Program-made: the position numbers and the translations under genes
The notes under the pieces: generated by a model
Seen by the model: the letters and a program-made list of their open reading frames with translations, nothing else
Told to the model about the DNA's origin: nothing
Databases searched by the model: none
In this document: in pieces, positions 6,658 to 53,880 of the stretch
Position numbering within the stretch: position 1 is the first letter of the stretch
How the letters are laid out: each line of letters opens with the position of its first letter
Assembly (NCBI GenBank): GCA_950295325.1
Contig: OX485806.1
Coordinates: 36,644,001-36,708,000, forward strand
Source: Polytrichum commune
Taxonomy: Eukaryota > Streptophyta > Polytrichopsida > Polytrichales > Polytrichaceae
Reading direction: 5' to 3'
Length of the DNA stretch: 64,000 nt

Positions 6658-7686
6658 CTAAGAGCCACCCACATCAGCATTCAAATCAAGTGTGTCATAT
6701 AGGCTAGAATTTTTTCCTAGACCTCCTTCTTCCCCCTCTTCTTCCTCCGCTTCTTCTTCATCTATAGTAATCACTGGAGGTATTTGGGCCGAACGTGGGA
6801 GTTCTTTCCGCAATTTCATCACATATTTTTGCCGTTCCAAATAAGCTTGTTCTTCTCTTAATTTGAAATATGCTTCAGATATTGTATCGGGTTGTCGGCC
6901 GGGACAATTGAACAGTGCATCATCATTAGCATCCTTTAGTACTATGGACTTCTCCGCAGACGACTCACTCATAAGTTTGAATGCCTCTACTGCACTTTTC
7001 AATGCAGCCATATGTAGTTCTTGATTGAGCCTTGCTGTTTTTGCATTTTTTTGTCCTTCCGGTCGTTGTAATTCGTCAGTTGGATTTTCACCCGAGCCTT
7101 GTCCCGCTTGACCTTCACCCACAATCAAATCTATATCAACATCTATGCACCTATTGGGAGTGTTTTGTACCCTTCTCGCTGGATCTCTATAAAACCATTG
7201 TGGATAGTCCTTCAAATACAACCAACAATGCATAAATCTCAATGGTTATTTATCCTTAGGATTTCCGGCTTTATCAAAAATCGTCTTTTGCGCTTCTTTG
7301 TACATCACTTGCGCATTTTGTTGTATGTCCTCCTCCGTGGTGCCTGATTTGTTTAGTGTTTTTACATTCAGATAATATTGATTATATATACTGCACTCTC
7401 TTTGTATTAGTCCCCACCTAGACTCTAAGGACTTTGGAGTTCTCTTGCAGTTATTGACATCCATTGAATTAAAATGATCAGCCACCCTTTGTAAAAATGT
7501 GGCCGAGGTTTGGTTGATGCCTTGTATAGGATCTTGCGAAATATGTACATGACTCCTACACAATTGAATATCCTCACATGGGCCAAAATTTTTGAATCGA
7601 AACGATTTGCCGATATTTCCACTAGAACCAGGTACACTTTCCATTTTATGTACTTGGGAATGATATTTTGCGACAAAGAGTTTCAT
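6658..7686 (-). pseudogene. Harbinger ORF1, Myb/SANT-like and NAM-associated type, one nonsense codon
   Basis: A frame of about 340 codons interrupted by a single TAA at 7246-7248. The first half has a SANT/trihelix-like region (FKNFGPCEDIQLCRSHVHIS then KRTPKSLESRWGLIQ, aligning with the ORF1 of the element at 14.7-18.6 kb). The second half has the HCWLYLKDYPQWF block, a polar linker, a charged helix (YFKLREEQAYLERQKYVMKL) and a Glu-rich tail. In this superfamily ORF1 is a DNA-binding partner of the transposase that assists its nuclear import and binding. The start could be the ATG at 7686 or the one at 7644. It diverges from the transposase pseudogene at 7976. Because only one stop disrupts it, ORF1 has decayed less than the transposase. 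Confidence 0.75.
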
Positions 7687-14717: not shown

Positions 14718-14913
14718 TTAGAGCATCCCTAATGGGACCCTCAACGGGTCTCGGCAACGGCCCTTGGCGGGCCCGCAGCAGTAAGTGGGACCTAACGGCC
14801 ACGGCACAGCCCCCGCATTATTTATGGGCCTCGCCAGACTTGGCCCTCTCTCGCCAATTATTCGCGTTTTGCAGGGAGATAATTCCGGGACGCCATCACG
14901 AGTCAACGCCAGG

Positions 14914-16927
14914 ATGGCAACGGGGGAGGCGGGAAAGGGGAAGAAGGGGAAGAACTTCAGCGCTGATGAGGAGAGGGCCTTGTGCCGGAGTTTTTTGGCG
15001 GTTTCGCAGGATCCTGTCTGTGGCAATGGCCAACGCAACACGGCATTTTGGGAGCGCATCACAACAAATTACAACCACAACAAACCAAGATCATGTCCTA
15101 TCCGTCCTGCTAGGTCTCTAGAATCGAAGTGGAGTCACATCAAACACGATGTTGCAAAATTCAGTGGTGTATTCAAGCAAGTCTCAGATTGTAGGGAGTC
15201 CGGGGCATCTGCTGAGGATGTTTTAGAGAGGGCGCTTGAGTTTTACAAGGATCGACATCCCAAACAGCAGGGATTTGCATTTCTACATTGCTGGCACCTC
15301 CTTAAGGAGGTGCCGAGGTGGTGGCAGTCGGCCCAGGATATTCAACGTCGTGGTTCCGGAGCCGGTGCGGCGTCGCCGGTTGCCATGGCTAATGCCACTG
15401 CTGCAGAGGTCAATGGTGGTTTACAAGCCGAATGCGGGGAAGCAGGCGAGGAGGATGACGTGCAGGTGGTGAAGCAGGTGAATTTCCCGAGCCGGCCCAC
15501 ACGACCCCAGGGAAGCAAGGCGGCGAAGGCAGATCTGGTTGACCAGACCAGGCGGGATTCGATACTGCGATCCCAGGCTCTAGCGACGGAGCAGATGGCG
15601 AGAGCAAACATGCGGAAGGCCAAGGCAATGGGGGACCACGCTGCGATGTCCCTGTTCCGAATGCCCATCGAGGATGTCGACGAGGAGGCTCGGGAATACT
15701 TCAAGCTGCGGCGCAAGGAGGAGCTGGAGCGCATTAAGCGCCGGATGGAGCAAGAGCAGCGAGTTGCGGAGCGGGAGAGGATCGAACACGAGAAGCTGCT
15801 TCGGGAAAGGGCCGCCGACCACCACCGCACCAAGCGACCGAGGGTGCAATCGAAGACACCTGTGCTCCCCCAATCTGAACCAGAACCCACAATGTCGCCG
15901 AATGTGCCCCGCTCCGACGCCACCCCGGCTCCCCCGACCCCAGGTCCTCTTCCTGCTGTGGAGGAGGATTCCCCGGTGCAGCCAGATCTCGGTGAGTTTT
16001 TGTTTTTTTTTGTGGCATCTACTTAGGGTTTGGGTACATTGCTAGTTCGGTGTTTTTTTTTTGCAAAGACTGGTTGTGAATGCTGGGATGAGGCTGCAGG
16101 TTAGGTTAGGTTTTTTTTTGCAAAGACTGGTTGTGAATGCTGGGATGAGGCTGCAGGTTAGGTTAGGTTTTTTTTTTGCTAAGACTGGTTGTGAATGCTG
16201 GGATGAGGCTGCAGGTTAGGTTAGGTTTTTTTTTGCTAAGACTGGTTGTGAATGCTGGGATGAGGCTGCAGGTTAGGTTAGGTTTTTTTTGCAAAGACTG
16301 GTTGTGAATGCTGGGATGAGGCTGCAGGTTAGGTGTTTTTTTTTTGCAAAGACTGGTTGTGGATGCTGGGATGAGGCTGCAGGTTAGGTGTGTTTTTTTT
16401 TTGCAAAGACTGGTTGTCAATGCTGGTTGTCAATGCTGGGTTTATGCTGCAGGTTAGGTTAAGGGTTTTTTTTTTTGCAAGCAGTGGTTGTCAATGCTGG
16501 TTGTCAATGCTGGTTGCTAGGCTGCAAGTTAGGTTAGGTGGTTTTTTTTTTTTGCAAGCACTGGTTGTCAATGCTGGTTGTCAATGCTGGTTGCTACATG
16601 TAGGGATGAGGGTGCAGTTAATGGTTTTTTTTTTGTAAGGACTGACTGAGTGTGGTTGCTGGTTTCTGTGCAGATGATGCACAGGCTGATCATTGGGATG
16701 ACTCGCAACCCATCCCGGATACACAACCTTGCGGGGAATCTCCAATACCCCAGCTGAGATTTGGAGAGAATAGACCCCCTGTTTTTGCACAACAAGGGTC
16801 TATGTTTAGTTTAGGGAATAGCTTTGGTTTAGATGCACATCACTCACCCATTGTAGAAGGACAAATGTATGGATTCAGAAATTTTGGGCAAGGATTGAAC
16901 CTTAATGCCCGATTCTTTACACAATAA
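14914..16927 (+). CDS. Harbinger ORF1 protein, Myb/SANT and NAM-associated type, spliced
   Basis: Exon 1 runs from the ATG at 14914 to 15991 and exon 2 from 16674 to the TAA at 16925-16927. The intron begins GTGAGT at 15992 and ends TTTCTGTGCAG at 16673. The joined frame is 443 codons plus stop. Residues 10-120 form a SANT/trihelix-like domain (FSADEERALCRSFLAVSQDP, RSLESKWSHIKHDVAKF). Then come the HCWHLLKEVPRWW block, a variable linker, and a long Arg/Glu-rich helix ending near a KRPR nuclear-localisation-like patch. Exon 2 adds a GFRNFGQGLNLN tail. ORF1 proteins of this superfamily bind subterminal DNA and work with the transposase. The intron consists largely of a minisatellite. Upstream non-ATG sequence is open but the ATG with a lysine-rich start is the natural choice. 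Confidence 0.85.
16050..16665. repeat. Minisatellite filling the ORF1 intron
   Basis: About nine to ten direct copies of a 55-80 bp unit: GCAAAGACTGGTTGTGAATG, then CTGGGATGAGGCTGCAGGTT, then AGGTTAGG and a run of 8-12 T. Later copies contain an internal duplication of GGTTGTCAATGCT. The T runs provide pyrimidine tracts throughout the intron; only the last is followed by the acceptor used in my model. Confidence 0.9.
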
Positions 16928-16950: not shown

Positions 16951-18261
16951 TCACAATCTTCTCCTTTGCCCTTTAATCATCCACAAATGGTCTATCAAAT
17001 CATTTCGTAATGCAAAATGGGACTCTACATTCTCAACCTCTCTAGTGCTGGCTACCAAGTCCCTGAATGAGAAAGGAATGGGTGTGGTCTCCACAGGTAA
17101 TCCCCAATCGGGAAATGGCTCTAAAGTTAGGCCCTTCTCATCTTCCAAAATCATGTTGTGCATAATAATGCAAGCGATCATGATGTTCTCAATAATACCT
17201 AAATCCCATTGCCGTACTGGATTCTTGATAATTTCCCACCTTGCTTGCAGGACCCCAAAAGCCCTCTCAACATCCTTGCGGGCACCCTCTTGACACTTCG
17301 CAAAGTGCTCCTTCATCTCACCCACAGGCTCGTGTATTGGTTGCACGAAACAAGCCCAGGCTGGATATATACCATCCGTCAACAGATAATAGCGGGGGTA
17401 CACATGCCCATTTACCTGGAATCTAATGTCGTGACCTGCTCCCCGTAGCATGTTCAAAAGAAATGGAGAGTTATCAAGGACATTGATGTCGTTGTTGCCT
17501 CCTGGCAACCCAAAAAATGCATGCCATATCCACAAGCTCTGGTCGGCAACAACTTCAAGGATGATGCTCCTGTTCTTGTCTTTGTCTTGGAACTGACCCT
17601 GCCATGCCACTGGACAATTCTTCCAAGTCCAGTGCATGCAATCCAAACTTCCAAACATCCCTGGAAATCCACGCTTCTCATTGATGGACATCTGCTTCTC
17701 TATATCATCTCTAGTAGGTTGTCTCAAATACGTGGCCTCAAAACAACCTCGAATGGCAACTACAAACCTCTCCATGCACATCTGAGCAGTGGATTCTCCT
17801 AATTTGCAGTACTCATCACATGCATCAGCAGCTACACCATATGCCAACATACGGATGGCGGCAGTGCATTTCTGCAAGGAAGATAATCCCATACGACCTG
17901 TGGCATCAGGACGTTGTTTGAACCACGGATCAAAATGGACAACGGTATCAACAATGCTTGTGAATAACTCCCTCCTCATCCTGAAACGTCTTCGGAACTT
18001 AACTGGCCCATACGTAGGACTCTCAGAAAAATAATCCTTGTATAGGAGATTATGACAATGCTCCCTATCACGCCACACAAATTCTCTACCAACCGTACTC
18101 CCACCCACCTTGGGCCTGGTGGATGACTCACCCAATACCTCAGTAGAAAAAGCCTCAACCATCTGTAGGAATAGGTCATTCTCAAATTCCTCTTCCATGT
18201 CCTCATCAAACCCTAATCCAAACCCAAGGCTCCTCTCAAGCTCATCCTCCCAACTCTCCAT
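16951..18261 (-). CDS. PIF/Harbinger DDE transposase
   Basis: 436 codons from the ATG at 18261 to the TGA at 16951-16953. The start MESWEDELERSLGFGLGF is typical, and the open frame upstream lacks a better ATG with coding character. An HTH-like region (RRRFRMRRELFTSIV, LQKCTAAIRMLAYG) precedes the nuclease domain. The catalytic triad is intact: Asp in FGSLDCMHW (residue 207), Asp in YYLLTDGIYPAW (residue 296), Glu in KDVERAFGVLQARW (residue 332). The NIMIACIIMHNMILEDE block and the C-terminal LRNDLIDHLW block are also present. The protein is full length for the plant ALP1-like DDE_Tnp_4 family, which cuts and pastes DNA at TWA targets. It converges with ORF1, leaving 23 bp between the two stop codons, so the two transcripts probably overlap at their 3' ends. 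Confidence 0.93.
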   Translation of the reverse strand: MESWEDELERSLGFGLGFDEDMEEEFENDLFLQMVEAFSTEVLGESSTRPKVGGSTVGREFVWRDREHCHNLLYKDYFSESPTYGPVKFRRRFRMRRELFTSIVDTVVHFDPWFKQRPDATGRMGLSSLQKCTAAIRMLAYGVAADACDEYCKLGESTAQMCMERFVVAIRGCFEATYLRQPTRDDIEKQMSINEKRGFPGMFGSLDCMHWTWKNCPVAWQGQFQDKDKNRSIILEVVADQSLWIWHAFFGLPGGNNDINVLDNSPFLLNMLRGAGHDIRFQVNGHVYPRYYLLTDGIYPAWACFVQPIHEPVGEMKEHFAKCQEGARKDVERAFGVLQARWEIIKNPVRQWDLGIIENIMIACIIMHNMILEDEKGLTLEPFPDWGLPVETTPIPFSFRDLVASTREVENVESHFALRNDLIDHLWMIKGQRRRL

Positions 18262-18856
18262 GACTAGAACAAAGTAGAGAAACAAAAAACTAAAAGTCCA
18301 CACCCCTCACTCACCAATATTCACAGCAGCAGGAGGAGCAGGTAAAAATTCACAGCAACAGGAGCTCCGGGAGAGAGAAGGAAGGCCACGAGGCCAAGAG
18401 AGGAAGGCCACGAGGACCCGCGACCTGCCAGGTAAGTGCTGCTTTTTCCTTGCCGGGGTCTCTTCACGGGCCACTGTTGGGGCACACGCTGGCCACTTCT
18501 CCCCGCGATTTTCGAGAGACCACGCCACAGCCCCTTGGCGAGTCACTATTTTGAGGGATGATTGGGGATGCTCTTAGACTCGGTCCCGGTTACTTGTCAC
18601 TAGACTTTTGTTAAGTTTGACAAAATGATATTTTATGAACACTTAGACTCTTTATAAGTTAAGTAACCCCTACAAGTGGTCACTAAGTATAAATGAGAAA
18701 GTGAAACCTAAATTAATTGACTGTCAAAAGCATTTCATAATCCTTTCAACCTATCAATTAATCTTATTATGACACACTAAAATTATACCTGACACTTATT
18801 TGGTCTTCCTTGGGGTTTTTTTTTGAGAGTATGAACCCAACCTAAAAAACCTAACT

Positions 18857-46446: not shown

Positions 46447-48574
46447 TTAATCAAACCAATGTGTTGTCACCCTCAAAACATTAGTTTCCAATCCTTTTGA
46501 ATTTTCCCCAACCTGATCTTTGAAATTGGGATGGAAAGTGAATGACAATGGATTTAGGCTATGGAACCCTTCTCCCAATTGTGTCGAGGGTGGAGATATT
46601 TCTTTCACTATGCTCCCATTGACAACATCATAAACAATTCCTTTATGTTCAATAGTATTGAAGATGCATATTTTGTCTACCCCATGAGGCACACATGTGT
46701 ATTCAGGATACACCAAAAGACCACGTCCACCAGACTTGGACTCCTTCACAACATTCTTCCACTTCCCAATGCTCGAGGAAACACGTTCAAGCTTCTCAAT
46801 GCAGTGGTCCACATGTCGACCATGTTCACGTTCCAAAAATAGATAGAGTTCTCCGTTGCACTCAAGCAATTGTGCTATAGAATTTGTATGACGACAAGAT
46901 GGAGAGGGTAATGGACATTTCCAATCCGATATCCATTCCCCTTCATCAACGTTGTAGGCAAGCACACCTTTGCCACTTACGGTCTTTCCAGATCCGTCAT
47001 CCATAAATGCAATGCAATACAATACACCATCAATGTATACCCCGGTTTGGTATTCATTCAAACAAAATTCCGGGCCTGGGATGTCCCCAGTTTTTGTCCA
47101 CTTCCAAGTCAAAGAGTCAAAGATTTCAGTGCATTTGGACAACCCTCCTTCCATGCCAGAACTACCCGCAACAATCACCTTGTAGGATTTTGTTGTGGAA
47201 TTCACCAACATGTGCATGAGTACTGGGTTCCTCCGAGAGTTTAGAGGTGGCAGTTCCACCATCTTTTCAGTTAAAGGGTTGCACACAATCACCCTCTCTT
47301 CATGAGCCACTTTGGAGACATTGATGCACAAGAGTCCTTCTCCTCCTGCAACAAAGTACTCTTTGAACAAATCTTCCTCTGGTGGGGGAAGAAATGTAAG
47401 CGCTGGCAATCTTTTCCAATCCCCCGATAACAAGTCAAATCCTGAACATTGCCAAATTTTGTCCTTCATGAAGAAGTAAAGAGGGGATAATGAGGCTTCC
47501 CTTGTGTGTATTTGGCCACGAGAGATATGATATGTGTCACTTTCTATGAATGACTTCACTTCTTTTGATGCTAGTTTCACTTGAGTCAATTCTTTATAGT
47601 CAAGTTTGTTTAGCAATGCTTCTTGTAGGTCCCGAGGTAAAGCACTCCAGCTTCGATCCTTCATTTGGTCAACACAGAACCTTTGATCAAGGAGTATATT
47701 CCATATATCACTTTGTTCATAAGTCTCATCATTGGTCTTCATAAATTCCAAACCACTAGGCTCCTTAGCCATTTCATCCAAAACATATTCAGATTGAACT
47801 ATATTGGGATCTTCAGTCGTCATACTAAGCACCTCTGTCTCAGATTTCATCATTTCCACGAAAAATGTTTCCAAATTCATGTCTTCATTTTTGCTTAATA
47901 CTTCTTCACGAATATCCGTAATGTTTGATAACCCTAGTGAATTGGTACATTCTTGTACTCCCATTGATTGGTTCTCATTTTCATACACTAGCTCTTCAAC
48001 CTTTTCAATTGTAGGCTCCAAAGATGGAGGCTCAAGGGAAGAGATCCATAAACAATGCTTCTCCCTAGAAATATTTGCAAAGTCCTCAACTGATTCAATG
48101 TGATTTTGAGCATTTGTATCCATTGCATTGTCCTCAAATGCCATATCGATGTTGTCATCTAGAGATTTGCACATCGTTTTGCCAACTTCTTCCCCCTCTG
48201 TTGTAACTCCAATGTTAGTATCCATAGAGCTAGAATGACTTTGCTCCTCTTCAAATTGCAAATGCAAGGATGAAACCTCATTTGGTTCTTCAAATGGTAA
48301 TAAACCCATTTCCTCATTCTCTAGAGAAGTCATAGGTGGACCTTTGACATGCTCATACTCACTCCATGGGGACTTGCACACTCTCATGCCAAAATTGTCG
48401 CGTGAGAACTTTGAATAAGGAAGTTCCCCCTTCTTTCCATCAAAAAATATATCTTCCATGGAATTTGCAAAATTTGTATGGTCATTGATCCTCCAATCAT
48501 GTCCTCTTTTCCGAGAATTGGCCCAATGAAAACCAAGACATCTTGCTTTTGAGTCCCCTTTGGCATCCTCCAAT
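46447..48574 (-). CDS. Exon C: acidic linker, F-box and kelch-like domain
   Basis: About 709 codons ending at the TAA at 46447-46449. After RLEDAKGDSKARCLGFHWAN comes an acidic, low-complexity linker of about 300 residues. The F-box is SWSALPRDLQEALLNKLDYK then ELTQVKLASKEVKSFI (about 47655-47538). The C-terminal part resembles F-box-associated kelch repeats: GGEGLLCINV, VIVCNPLTEKMVELPPL, GVYIDGVLYCIAF, GVLAYNVDEGEWISDW, LLECNGELYLFLER. Such proteins usually place the repeat domain against the substrate and the F-box against Skp1. If the exon is an independent gene, the ATG at 48582 (MNRLEDAKG) would be its start. A T-rich tract just before that ATG supports use as a splice acceptor instead. 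Confidence 0.8.
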
Positions 48575-51228
48575 CTATTCATATCAAAAAAACAAAAAAA
48601 TAAGATGAGTATGCAAACAAATATCAACAAGTTTGCAATAAATCCTATGTTCAAAGTGCATGCAATAGATAGATATGCACAATAAGATATCTATGCAATT
48701 AATGAGAGTAAGCTACAAGTGGTCATATACAATATTACCTTTTTGTAATCTGTGGAGAAAAAGATGCTCCATCCAAAGAGCACGCAAATGACGTCCATTG
48801 TTTTAAGTCTCTTAGTTGTTCCGCAATGTTTGAAAAATCGGGGCGACAATTGGGATCATGAACCCAACAATTACTTATCAATGTTTTCAAAGATTTAGGA
48901 TAATCTTTTGGTAGCAATGGCCTCTCGTTCTTGCTTATGATTTTTTGCAAGGCATCAAAGTCACTTACATCGTGAAAAGGCACACAACCTGTCAAAACTT
49001 CATAACACATCATCCCAAAGCTATATACGTCTGCCTTACAAGTGGCACTCCCAACTCTCCAGTTGTCTTCCCATGACTCTGGTGCCATGTAAGCAATTCT
49101 CTCAATATTGTCACCACCTGACAAAGGAATTGGGTCTGTAATTTGGGATAAACCAAAATCTGCTAGTTTCACATGGACATAGCCTTCTTTGGCTAGATCT
49201 TGGTGCAGCACATGATTGACAAGAACGTTATGAGGTCGAAGACCGGAATGAACTATATCATGATCATGTAAATACCACATACCTTCAGCAATTTGAAGTA
49301 AAAGATCAATTGCTGCTGAAAATGAAAATGGATGCATTTTGTTCTCACTTTTTCTCTTCTTCATGACCTCATGCAAGTTTGTGGGCATGAACTCCATCAC
49401 AAAGGAATATTCTTCTTTCTCAATAATGCCACAATATATCGGGATGACATTTGGGTGGCTCAAAGTAGACAAACTTGAAGTTGTTGTCTGAAACTTCATA
49501 TCGTTGACATGGTTGAAAATCTTTTGAGCACATATTGCTCCAATCCATCGGATTTTGTACACCCTACCATATCCTCCAATCCCAAGTAAGGTTTTGTTAT
49601 CAACATGAACATCGCAAAGAACATTTGGCCCAAGAAGTCTTTCAACTAAAATGGGCAAGTGAAGAAGATCTCCATCATCCAGCTCTTTTCCTTTTACGTG
49701 ACACTCCAATTTCTCCACCAACGCATTATGATCTTCAAGAGCAATTTGTTCGAGACTTTGCACATCTCTTGTTTGTGGCTTTGAAGATCTCACCTTTGCA
49801 AAGTCAATTCCAATTTCCTCAAGCTCCGGTATCACTGGCAATGCTCTCAATAGTAAACTCATGGACCCAATTAAGTAGAATATTATATGGTGGATCGCTT
49901 GTATTTTGCTGATGATTAATATTGCAGTCAACATCCAAGACTTGTATTGGCAAGACTCTTGTAGTATTTGATTTGCCTCTTCCACAAAACGATATAACTC
50001 TTTCAAGAGTATGTCACATTGTCCTTTGGAGGTGTTGCTTTCATATTGTTTGAGGATACATTCAATTTCTTGAAGTTTGCCCACCAAATATTCACATTGC
50101 AACTTGTATAAAGTCAAACCCACCGAGGTCAACTTCACTTTGACATCTTGAATTAAGTCCAAATTTAGTTGAACCAAATTTGCCTCTTCAAAACCAACTT
50201 GACATCTTGAGCCCTCCATCTTGTAAAACAAATTCAACCTACACCCACAAAGAAACTTAATGACCATTGAAAGTGGGTGAAACTTGAAGCCATTTAAGTA
50301 TTTCTCAAACCACCATGTCATGTGATGGTTAATTTGCAAATGTCACCTCACCAACAACTCTTCACACCCTTTTGTGAACTGCAAATTATAATTTTAGCTT
50401 CTTGAATTGCCCAAAGAAAAAATATCAAGTGACAATTCATTCTTCGTGTGTTCCCTAAAATCTATGCAAAGAACATCTACTTAATTTCATCCACTCAATC
50501 AATGGTTGCACAATAAACTCAAAACATGCATAAGCCACAACTTTGAAATATAATGAAAAGATTACATACTCTTTGTGTAGACACTTGGAGACTTTCACGC
50601 CTCCTTTTGCAAGTTTGACAAAAACATCTATGGAAACCAATCGGGTTGCCAATTGTTCCATCATCATACCATTAACCTCCACCAATTTTTGATTAGCATG
50701 TTCCACATATTTTCCAACACTGACATGTTGCACCTCAATCCAATGAGCATTTAAACCTTCATGCCCCGAGTTAGTATTAAACCCATTCCTCATGTATGGC
50801 TTCATTTGTAGTTTGAAGTAAGGACCACATTTGGAACCTTCTCCCATCATCTTCACTTGACAATCGCAAAATCTTTGATAGACATGTCGGTTGTCTTGTA
50901 TGGAACTTGACCCAAGTTGTTGTGGACTCCCATGAGCTTTGCAATCTTCCAACATAAATTGCAACAATAGGACACGACCATGCTCATACCCATTCCTTCT
51001 CCTCTGAAGTCTAGAAAATGGATCCAAACCACTGGGTACAAAGGTTGTGGTGAGCACACATCCATTTCGAATATCTTCAATGCTCCTTGGAGATGCATCA
51101 AGCTCTTGAATCTCTTGGGCACATTCAAAGTCTTGTTTTTTGTTGCTCGAGCCAGAATAAACTTCATTCATTGTTGAATTCCCACCATAATCCCAATCAG
51201 AGTAGTCACGAACCAAGGGCGGTACCAT
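46447..51228 (-). CDS. Predicted MLKL-like pseudokinase / F-box / kelch fusion gene (three exons)
   Basis: Gene model on minus: 51228-50570, 50238-48739, 48574-46447. Intron 1 (331 bp) starts GTATGT and ends GTGGGTGTAG. Intron 2 (164 bp) starts GTAATA and ends in a T-rich tract and AATAG. Both joins are phase-compatible and the sum, 4,287 nt, is 1,428 codons plus stop. Predicted order: uncharacterised N-terminus (1-219), MLKL-like helical region (about 226-351), kinase-like domain (about 436-676), acidic linker (720-1026), F-box (about 1027-1065), kelch-like domain (about 1100-1420). F-box proteins bring substrates to the Skp1-Cullin1 ubiquitin ligase; MLKL-like pseudokinases act in cell-death signalling. 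The start could lie further upstream. The alternative is two separate adjacent genes, because the second segment has a stop right at the proposed donor. Confidence 0.55.
48739..50238 (-). CDS. Exon B: MLKL-like helical region and pseudokinase domain
   Basis: 500 codons. The first 130 residues after MEGSRCQVGF form amphipathic helices (LVQLNLDLIQDVKVKLTSVG, LYKLQCEYLVGKLQEIECIL, LLKELYRFVEEANQILQESC), as in four-helix N-termini of plant MLKL-type proteins. The kinase-like domain has the Gly loop GIGGYGRV, a Lys in ICAQKIF, hinge FVMEFMPTNL, HRD-position sequence IVHSGLRPHNVLVN (codons 49250-49242), LADFGLSQ, MAPESW, DVYSFGMMCYEVLTGCVPF and CWVHDPNCRPDF. The catalytic Asp is replaced by Gly, so phosphotransfer is unlikely although DFG and the Lys remain. 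The domain resembles tyrosine-kinase-like (TKL/MLK) kinases. It ends in PQITK at AAAAAG|GTAATA; without splicing a TAA follows at once. Confidence 0.85.
50570..51228 (-). CDS. Exon A: uncharacterised N-terminal segment
   Basis: Open from the ATG at 51228 to the donor at 50569. It begins MVPPLVRDYSDWDYGG and ends GGVKVSKCLHK before GTATGT. About 219 residues with no recognised domain; it contains a short basic stretch (RLQRRRNGYEHG) and two predicted helices (VGKYVEHANQKLVEVNGMMM, EQLATRLVSIDVFVKLAKGG) that could start the helical region of exon B. The frame stays open about 57 codons upstream with coding-like text (VEWSSHKDTQIAIK), so an earlier exon or start is possible. The last two bases of the exon and the first base of exon B form one codon. 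Confidence 0.5.
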
Positions 51229-51399
51229 CTTGATTGCAATTTGTGTATCTTTGTGGGAGCTCCACTCAACTTTAGAACCTATCACCACATATTGTTCACA
51301 CTTTAACTTCTCAATGTTTGTACAAAGTTTAAAATCTTGATGGCAACAATCACCTTTAGTCAATATAACACCAATTTTATGGCAATTGATAGCATACAA

Positions 51400-53880
51400 C
51401 CAAAGACAACAACTCCTTGGGTATGTCTTGCTTTAAAGCAATTTCAACACAAAGCTATCTCAAAAGAAGACAATATGAATGCAATTGATCTTTCTCATTT
51501 CCAATATGGATGCCATGAACACAACAAAGAAGAGGACCAAAGAAATGTCACAGAAAATCTCACAGTAACAAAATACAAAAGACCATAAAGAATGCATGCA
51601 TAGCTTGAAGCAAATGCACTCTATTTGTTCTTGATTTTGAAAATTGATCATAAGGATCATATGCCCTTGGTTGACAGCTTTGGTGAAATGTAGGTTTCCC
51701 ATCATATGTTAACTATAGTGAGAAGTTAACTTGTTCTTGAAATCACAAGTTACCTAAATCACACGCACTTAAATTATGTTCTTAAAGAATGATTGGTCAT
51801 GTATTTTTGAGTGACCACTACATTAGTGTAGAAATGACATTTATTAATAATCATGAATGTTATAGTATGCACAAAACACAACAATTCAATAATTAAACAT
51901 TCCTTGGGTGAGAACAGTGTCAAACAATCAAAAAATTAAATTAAAAAAATTAAAAATTAAAAATTAAAAAATATATATGTTTGTATATTGGATCAAATAC
52001 AATCATAATCTTACTTGCATCTTATGATGCTTTGTGCTAGGTTAGAGTTTGTGTATAAATAAATAGATTGTTTGAATACCACATGAATATTTCACATTTT
52101 TACATCAAAAACCCAAAATCTGAAACAACACTCCCTATTGCTCACACACATAAAGAACAATTTCCAAACAAAGAAGAATTCTTACTAAAAGGTTAAAGAA
52201 AAAGAATAAGGCACATTTCTTTGAAGAATGCATCACAACACAACTTAACTTGGGGTGGCACCTCAAACATATAATGTGTAACAAATATTCCATCCATATT
52301 ATCCTTGTACATTCATACCAAAGAACAATTTTACAGAACTTAGAATGGAGTGATGTAGTGCACATTTAGACCGCCCATAATACGTAATAATTTTTGGATT
52401 TGAACATGTCTATGTATTATAATACATGAATAAATTGAAAATAATGTGGACTTTCTCTTGGACAAGGGGGCTAGTCCATAACATGGTCTCCATCATAGCT
52501 AATTACAATTTATATAATCTACAACAATTTGAAGATTATGTCGATTATTTTGGCTTGTAAGCCTTCCAACTCTCTTCCCGACTTCTCTCAATGGCTTCTC
52601 TCCCACTACTCTTCTGAAACTTTTCAATCCCTCTTCAATATTTGAAAGTTGTAGATTATTTGAAACATCATCTAGATTATATGTACGATTATGTGTACAT
52701 AATCTATGCCTTTGTGAAAGTTTTGGACGAGCCCCTGAAATTATTTGTTTGAGGTGCTACTCCGAGCTATGATCTCTCTTTGGTTGCGAAACCATGAAGA
52801 TCGATTTGCATCGTAGATATATAGTGATGCACATTGGTTTTGGAATATCCTACGAAGTTGTAATTTGACTTTCATTTGTGACTCACACTAGATTCTAGTT
52901 CACATTATTTTCAATCAAAGAATAGTCTTGATATGTAGTATTTCTTAGCCTTAAATTATCAAAAACGTCTTAAAAACATTATCTCAGTGATGTCCTAATA
53001 TTTAGCAGTTTAGGATCCTTATTAATGCTTAATATCACCAAAGAACTCATTTCTCATTGTGAAGACAATTAGTATGACCTAATAATTGTTCAGTCACACT
53101 AGTCAAGCATTCACACAAGGCCCAAACCAAAAAATAAACAAAACTCAACAAAACAAAAAATTCACACATAAGAATGGCTTCCTGAAACATTCAAGTGTTG
53201 GAAGTGTCCTCTAACTTGCATCTAATCTCCGGAGAAAAGCAAGAGCAACATACTCTCAATCTGAAGCTGAAGACGATTCACTTGCAAATATCGATGAGGA
53301 GTAATAGCTTCTTGAAACGCAAAAAGTATCGAGATTAGTCCAAAAGCTTGGAAGAACAGCATCAGTGCGTCACAAGTGGGAAGGACAAGCTTGCTTTAAA
53401 CTTCCGTTTCCTGCAAAACAGGAACGTCGCCATCTCACATCAGCTGAGGTCCACACAACATTGTCTTGGAAATTACGCCATCCCCATTCTGTGCTTCCGA
53501 TTAGTACGACTCTCTATCTCGAAAAATTTACAAGTCTGGTCTTCTCTAAACATGCAGCAACTTCCCGCTAAGCACCCATCATCCAAAATAATGTTTTGTC
53601 GAATGAATCGAGCACACAGACGAAACCTGGATGATTTGATATCAAACACGCACCCACCATCCACAGTAATATTTTGTCAAATGAATCAAGCATAAAGACA
53701 GAAGGAACTGATCAATGTAGAAGGGCCATGCCAATTCTTTCGTAGAATTCCAAGCCATACAAAATATTTGGTAGGATTCCAACAGTGTCAAAACTCCCCA
53801 ACTCTATCCCTTCTATTGAGAGATAGAGAGAAAATACTCTACGAGACCAAAAGTATCTCTAGCTACGATCCTAAATCCAA
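51400..53880. other. Intergenic, upstream of the kinase/F-box gene
   Basis: AT-rich with no recognisable coding motif. It contains an AAATTAAAA-type simple repeat at 51930-51975. Any promoter of the minus-strand gene should lie in its left part; I could not pick out a convincing TATA box. Confidence 0.4.

Follow-up and report, generated by a model that had tools for sequence, protein, structure and literature searches.

A predicted moss gene that joins a HeLo-type pseudokinase to an F-box/kelch protein

Does this moss locus encode one protein with a pseudokinase at its front and an F-box/kelch protein at its back, or two same-strand neighbors? The locus lies on the minus strand of a 64,000-nucleotide (nt) window of the Polytrichum commune genome (C4:36644001-36708000); the genome searched comprised 408 Mb in 64 contigs, and positions below are those of the window. 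A sequence-only reading had joined three open segments into a single gene, and joining them again reproduced its exon coordinates, GT..AG borders, phase compatibility and 4,287-nt frame. Exon 1 (51228-50570), exon 2 (50238-48739) and exon 3 (48574-46447), carried by stop-to-stop open segments of 325, 535 and 747 codons, respectively, give one frame of 1,428 amino acids with a single terminal stop. Intron 1 (50569-50239, 331 nt) and intron 2 (48738-48575, 164 nt) both have GT..AG borders and are phase 2. The locus is probably a young chimeric moss gene in which a HeLo-pseudokinase is spliced through the 164-nt intron to an F-box/kelch protein. The profile search that the earlier reading had proposed as a check found Pfam matches in the predicted protein to a kinase (8e-45), the KIB1-4 propeller (1e-8), an F-box (0.004) and DUF1221 (0.003), the last two falling under the Pfam cut-offs.

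Exon 2 contains a HeLo/RPW8-like helical region and a kinase domain, as judged from its open frame, Pfam and PDB matches, alignment and profile. The helical region (49638-50219, its end placed by eye) runs from an in-frame ATG (MEGSRC) that is a possible natural N-terminus. The best PDB matches of exon 2 alone are 6lba and 6ka4, in the kinase part only. We take these entries to be Arabidopsis MLKL3 and MLKL2, respectively; the PDB's own names for them are 'Protein kinase family protein' and 'F22L4.1 protein'. Exon 2 aligns with relatives in the genome over residues 39-481, and a profile of eight rows (A1: exon 2 and seven relatives from the same genome) matches helical region and kinase together in 6lba (25-517, E 1.8e-82) and 6ka4 (22-516, 2.4e-76). 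The profile thus spans both parts of the MLKL-like module proposed from sequence, and the helical region and kinase of exon 2 appear homologous to the MLKL-type module via these relatives. A single-sequence AlphaFold model of exon 2 has a predicted local distance difference test score of 34, and the helical assignment rests on homology. The kinase domain (48813-49598) retains the glycine loop, the lysine (AQK), DFG and APE, and its HRD motif reads HSG (49242-49250). Among 27 aligned rows, itself included, it is the only kinase that has lost the HRD aspartate; the lysine and DFG are kept. The HRD to HSG change predicts a catalytically dead kinase, in line with the pseudokinase of the earlier reading.

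The relatives of exon 2 are largely immune receptor genes. The best 86 of 754 candidate kinase matches in the genome were scored, and the counts are lower bounds. Forty of the 86 are followed, on their own strand and no more than 3 kb downstream, by a listed NB-ARC match; the NB-ARC matches listed are the best 126 of 466 candidates. Another 22 of the remaining 44 (the fused copies left out) were read as DNA, and half of these (11/22) have an NB-ARC and half (11/22) have none in the span read. At least 51 of the 86 scored relatives, and so most, are kinases fused to nucleotide-binding leucine-rich repeat receptors (PK-NLRs). The window gave only a 22-residue match to the NB-ARC query (E 0.52, at 1211-1276), far from the locus, and none of the 126 listed matches falls in C4:36.5-36.9 Mb. 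A tree of the 27 kinases, built without Arabidopsis sequences, places the exon 2 kinase on a long branch (1.59) beside a PK-NLR-containing group without support (51/40). Topology tests reject neither its union with the PK-NLRs (approximately unbiased test, p-AU 0.229) nor its union with the stand-alone clade (0.343).

Exon 3 (46447-48574) is read from its frame, Pfam matches, codon score and alignment as an acidic linker, an F-box, a kelch/KIB-type propeller and the stop codon. The linker (47653-48573) has 307 codons with 21% D+E and 9% K+R. It is followed by the F-box (47533-47649) and a KIB1-4/kelch-type beta-propeller match (46750-47385), both found by Pfam and by an alignment (A3) of exon 3 with nine relatives. 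Exon 3 has at least 64 scored matches in the genome and is 40-49% identical to the nine F-box/kelch relatives. PF00646 (F-box, E <=0.05) is found in 10 of the 10 aligned sequences, Kelch_6 in nine and PF03478 (KIB1-4) in four, which supports the family that the sequence-only reading had named. Exon 3 itself matches PF03478 above the cut-off, and its F-box falls under it. The F-box family profile has no PDB match at E 0.01. A tenth relative that was read, L030 (L030:99-1973:-, C4:21.52 Mb), was left out of the alignment; it has the kelch part, no F-box match and a long, different N-terminus that looks armadillo-like by eye. Inheritance of the linker from F-box relatives was considered and rejected: the linker is unaligned among the 10 F-box frames, and a genome search returned only the near-identical copy described below.

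The two domain families otherwise keep apart among the matches listed. There is no kinase match (E 0.001) within 4.6-5.7 kb upstream of the 10 F-box relatives read (L021-L030), and among the 64 F-box and 86 kinase matches listed, only in the two fused copies do the two kinds come closer than 49 kb to each other. About 47 kb to the left is a degenerate F-box copy (L020); neither the L020 sequence nor the window shows a kinase match next to it. Because L020 lacks a kinase neighbor, the arrangement suggests that a local F-box cluster predates the kinase, which would have arrived upstream of one member.

The link between the two halves is intron 2 (48575-48738), whose sense strand is 27% GC and 46% T, compared with 39-41% GC in exons 1 to 3. 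Its donor (8.9) is the best within 48300-49000 and its acceptor scores 5.2; the splice-site weights are generic plant values, and these scores and the chance estimate are therefore rough. In the rest of the window, donors this good occur once per 2,035 bases and acceptors once per 301. The chance of an equally good in-phase pair is about 0.005 for search spans of 69 and 170 nt, which we chose; almost all of this low value comes from the phase condition together with the quality of the donor (P 0.033). The length of 164 nt fits the 117-270 nt range of PK-NB-ARC introns, picked by eye from scored sites in 9 of 15 relatives. Two separate genes would need a terminator and a promoter in about 150 bp, which supports a fused gene. 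The neighboring 13.5 kb on the left and the 12.5 kb on the right (to the window end) contain no other open reading frame of >=180 codons, a search that genes with short exons would escape.

Codon scores agree with this arrangement. The intron 2 gap has no coding signal (-0.15 to -0.19), and the adjoining linker has one (0.125); the F-box part of exon 3 scores 0.061, the helical and kinase parts of exon 2 score 0.117 and 0.030, and exon 1 scores 0.061, each in the stated frame. The reference means are -0.089 (sd 0.045) for non-coding sequence and -0.030 for off-frame coding sequence. The codon score is a weak witness because one frame of the 3' flank, a stretch with 12 stops, scores as high as 0.065 and a second frame of exon 1 scores 0.035.

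A near-identical copy (L019) sits 53.6 kb to the right and carries the same kinase-F-box junction and open frames. The two copies are without a difference over 3,921 bp (48010-51930), a tract that covers the kinase exon and leaves the F-box outside. The flanks differ by 1.7% (25 substitutions in 46502-48009) and 3.9% (31 substitutions and 22 gap columns in 51931-52719); at the flank rate about 96 differences would be expected in the identical tract, and none was observed. Gene conversion between the copies is suggested as the simplest reading of the tract, with assembly collapse as a possible alternative source. Between the copies the F-box exon has 12 synonymous and 13 non-synonymous changes, and the ratio of non-synonymous to synonymous rates (dN/dS) is 0.28 (binomial P 0.002 versus neutrality). 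The 13 include a stop that makes the copy 22 codons shorter, after the propeller. These results show purifying selection on the F-box exon, whose dN/dS implies that its coding role was maintained during at least some of the period since the copies split; the estimate covers this exon, the kinase exon being invariant. The kinase-F-box pairing is young or rare within this genome, since among the scored matches it is seen only at this locus and in the one near-identical copy.

Several observations weigh against a spliced fusion, and most of them fit two same-strand neighbors, a HeLo-pseudokinase gene ending at the TAA at 48735-48737 and an unspliced F-box/kelch gene starting at the ATG at 48582 (48580-48582). 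We regard this alternative as the less likely one, although its stop and start codons are placed as stand-alone genes could have them. The TAA closes the unspliced kinase frame about 20 codons past the kinase domain, near the point where 7 of the 11 relatives without a nearby NB-ARC close (2-21 codons past the kinase match), and the in-frame ATG begins 8 nt ahead of exon 3, just upstream of the intron 2 acceptor. That acceptor is not the best locally; other sites score 5.9 (48321), 5.2 (48691) and 8.3 (48750, ahead of the donor). Intron 2 is phase 2 and not homologous to the relatives' introns: the donor with the highest score has phase 0 in 13 of the 15 PK-NLRs and phase 1 in the seven early-closing kinases. 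The other 62 listed F-box matches all lie at least 49 kb from any listed kinase match, so the pairing is unrepeated elsewhere among the scored matches and there is no independent case of the fusion. Several F-box relatives also have unalignable N-terminal open-frame stretches ahead of the F-box. The join is a prediction from genomic sequence, and the ubiquitin ligase role and target considered below are proposals. The two-gene arrangement is opposed by the composition of the gap of about 150 bp, which is that of an intron, and by its strong in-phase splice pair. A close stop does not imply an unspliced gene either, because all seven early-closing relatives carry a donor of 6.6-9.0 near the stop. 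Of the earlier claim of a kinase-F-box join, a good candidate intron stands; a single transcript and the place of exon 1 in it are predictions, and the earlier idea that sensing of a ligand or of phosphorylation would steer ubiquitination is a proposal.

The TAA lies within the intron 2 donor (AAG/GTAATA), and intron retention would yield a clean kinase-only protein. The locus could then make chiefly this product and a minor fusion isoform, with the donor TAA as a switch, but purifying selection on the F-box exon requires its expression by some route, and we rate this version as improbable; it overlaps the favored spliced fusion, and the two likelihoods are not additive. A decaying locus or an assembly artefact (false duplication or chimeric join) would account for 3,921 bp of identity between copies and for the degenerate F-box copy about 47 kb away. 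This explanation is highly unlikely in view of the open frames and shared junction of both copies, the diverged flanks and the purifying pattern of the exon changes.

One further intron model was rejected. An apparent alignment between the intron 2 donor and the kinase tails of relatives L011-L016 had suggested that the F-box took the place of an NB-ARC through the same intron. The PK-NB-ARC donor lies further downstream and is phase 0 in 13 of 15, which agrees with the phase 0 given for the PK-NBS-LRR intron in PMC3352924.

Membership of exon 1 (50570-51228, 219 codons from its ATG) and intron 1 (50239-50569) in the predicted gene is much less secure than the intron 2 join. Exon 1 is doubtful because the intron 1 sites are weak (donor 4.8, acceptor 3.5, with better-scoring sites nearby) and the helical domain has an ATG of its own. 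The second frame with positive codon use also weighs against exon 1, which has no Pfam match and in a genome search matched only the near-identical copy. A start at the in-frame ATG of exon 2 (residue 227, MEGSRC) would leave exon 1 out and yield 1,202 amino acids; a comparable ATG is present in some kinase relatives, and L034 has none.

The favored chimeric gene could have arisen when a HeLo-kinase module of the PK-NLR N-terminal family landed directly upstream of a member of the F-box/kelch (KIB-like) family, the two parts being joined by splicing of intron 2. Its product would most likely have 1,202 amino acids and start in exon 2, or 1,428 with exon 1. Such a protein would be an F-box adaptor of an SKP1-cullin-F-box (SCF) ubiquitin ligase, binding SKP1, with a dead HeLo-kinase at its front. 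The most likely role of the pseudokinase would be to bind kinases of its own family or PK-NLRs, or the effectors directed against these, while the F-box part has the bound partners ubiquitinated. A more specific and speculative proposal, to which we give little weight, is that the dead HeLo-kinase acts as the SCF substrate arm that pairs with and removes active HeLo-kinases and PK-NLRs of the same moss, so that a decoy derived by copying from the receptor family becomes the family's degradation switch and the TAA in the donor allows a free and a ligase-linked form. Chia and others (PMC11218826) report that a kinase domain from a moss Pkn-NLR gave a modest and variable response and that every kinase tested, except one mutant, caused mild ion leakage; turnover of such modules would thus be a sensible control. 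A single protein from this locus would connect the HeLo-kinase immune module with turnover through ubiquitin by a natural gene fusion, and would offer a testable instance in which an immune decoy serves as a degradation adaptor.

CPR1-type F-box proteins limit NLR amounts and are not known to have a kinase domain. Their action on immune receptors resembles the role proposed for the fusion. F-box/kelch proteins with the KIB1-4 propeller (PF03478) share the F-box and propeller; unlike them, the fusion has the long acidic linker, otherwise found only in the copy, and, if spliced, a pseudokinase in front. Plant MLKL proteins have the same order of helical region and kinase-like domain, and their HRD motif is also altered (HGD and HGE in the two PDB entries, HSG here). 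DFG and the lysine, both changed in 6lba and 6ka4, are retained in the fusion, which is predicted to continue C-terminally into the linker, F-box and propeller. A review (PMC9950082) describes the plant MLKL family as conserved across seed plants. The moss PK-NBS-LRR class (PNL, Pkn-NLR), to which the kinase-NB-ARC genes of this genome belong and which Xue and others conclude to be moss-specific (PMC3352924), has a homologous helical and kinase module (30-31% identity to three members in A1). The fusion locus differs from it in having no NB-ARC match, a lost HRD and a downstream intron of phase 2 and not 0; the tree, without support, does not nest its kinase in the PNL clade. No description of a helical-kinase to F-box/kelch order was found in the listed titles and abstract openings of the open-licence papers searched, and the earlier reading likewise knew of no described family with this order. 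The component parts are known; the domain order is new to us.

The relatives themselves bear on what precedes the kinase in moss PK-NLRs. A helical region lies ahead of the kinase in six that were scanned, for example L011:1402-3075 (NB-ARC from 3394), L014, L036 and L045. Pfam found RPW8 in three of the six (best 5e-6), MLKL_N in one (0.003) and DUF1221 in one (0.001); the RPW8 and MLKL_N matches of L011 lie under the cut-offs. Moss PK-NLRs may accordingly be MLKL-type modules fused to NB-ARC-LRR and not bare kinases. A profile of PNLs only matches 6lba strongly in its kinase part and weakly in its helical part (11.5 bits, i-Evalue 0.8), a result that speaks against labeling the N-termini of PNLs firmly as MLKL.

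Among the 11 kinases read without a nearby NB-ARC, the seven with a phase-1 donor (6.6-9.0) just after the kinase domain are L015, L031, L032, L034, L038, L040 and L050, on C5 and C6. In both L040 and L050 another kinase match follows some 1 kb downstream, and L041 has a further similar frame by eye; these are tandem genes or two-module proteins. Related kinases at C3:43650565-43811874 and C1:66119600 lie in open frames of 768-928 codons, and in one of them (L035) no Pfam family matched the roughly 420 residues that follow the kinase. Elsewhere in the window, one transposase frame (Plant_tran, 2e-86) and two frames with a NAM-associated domain occur at 16951-18306 (-), 14785-16026 (+) and 6658-7245 (-); frames of these two kinds are partners in PIF/Harbinger elements.

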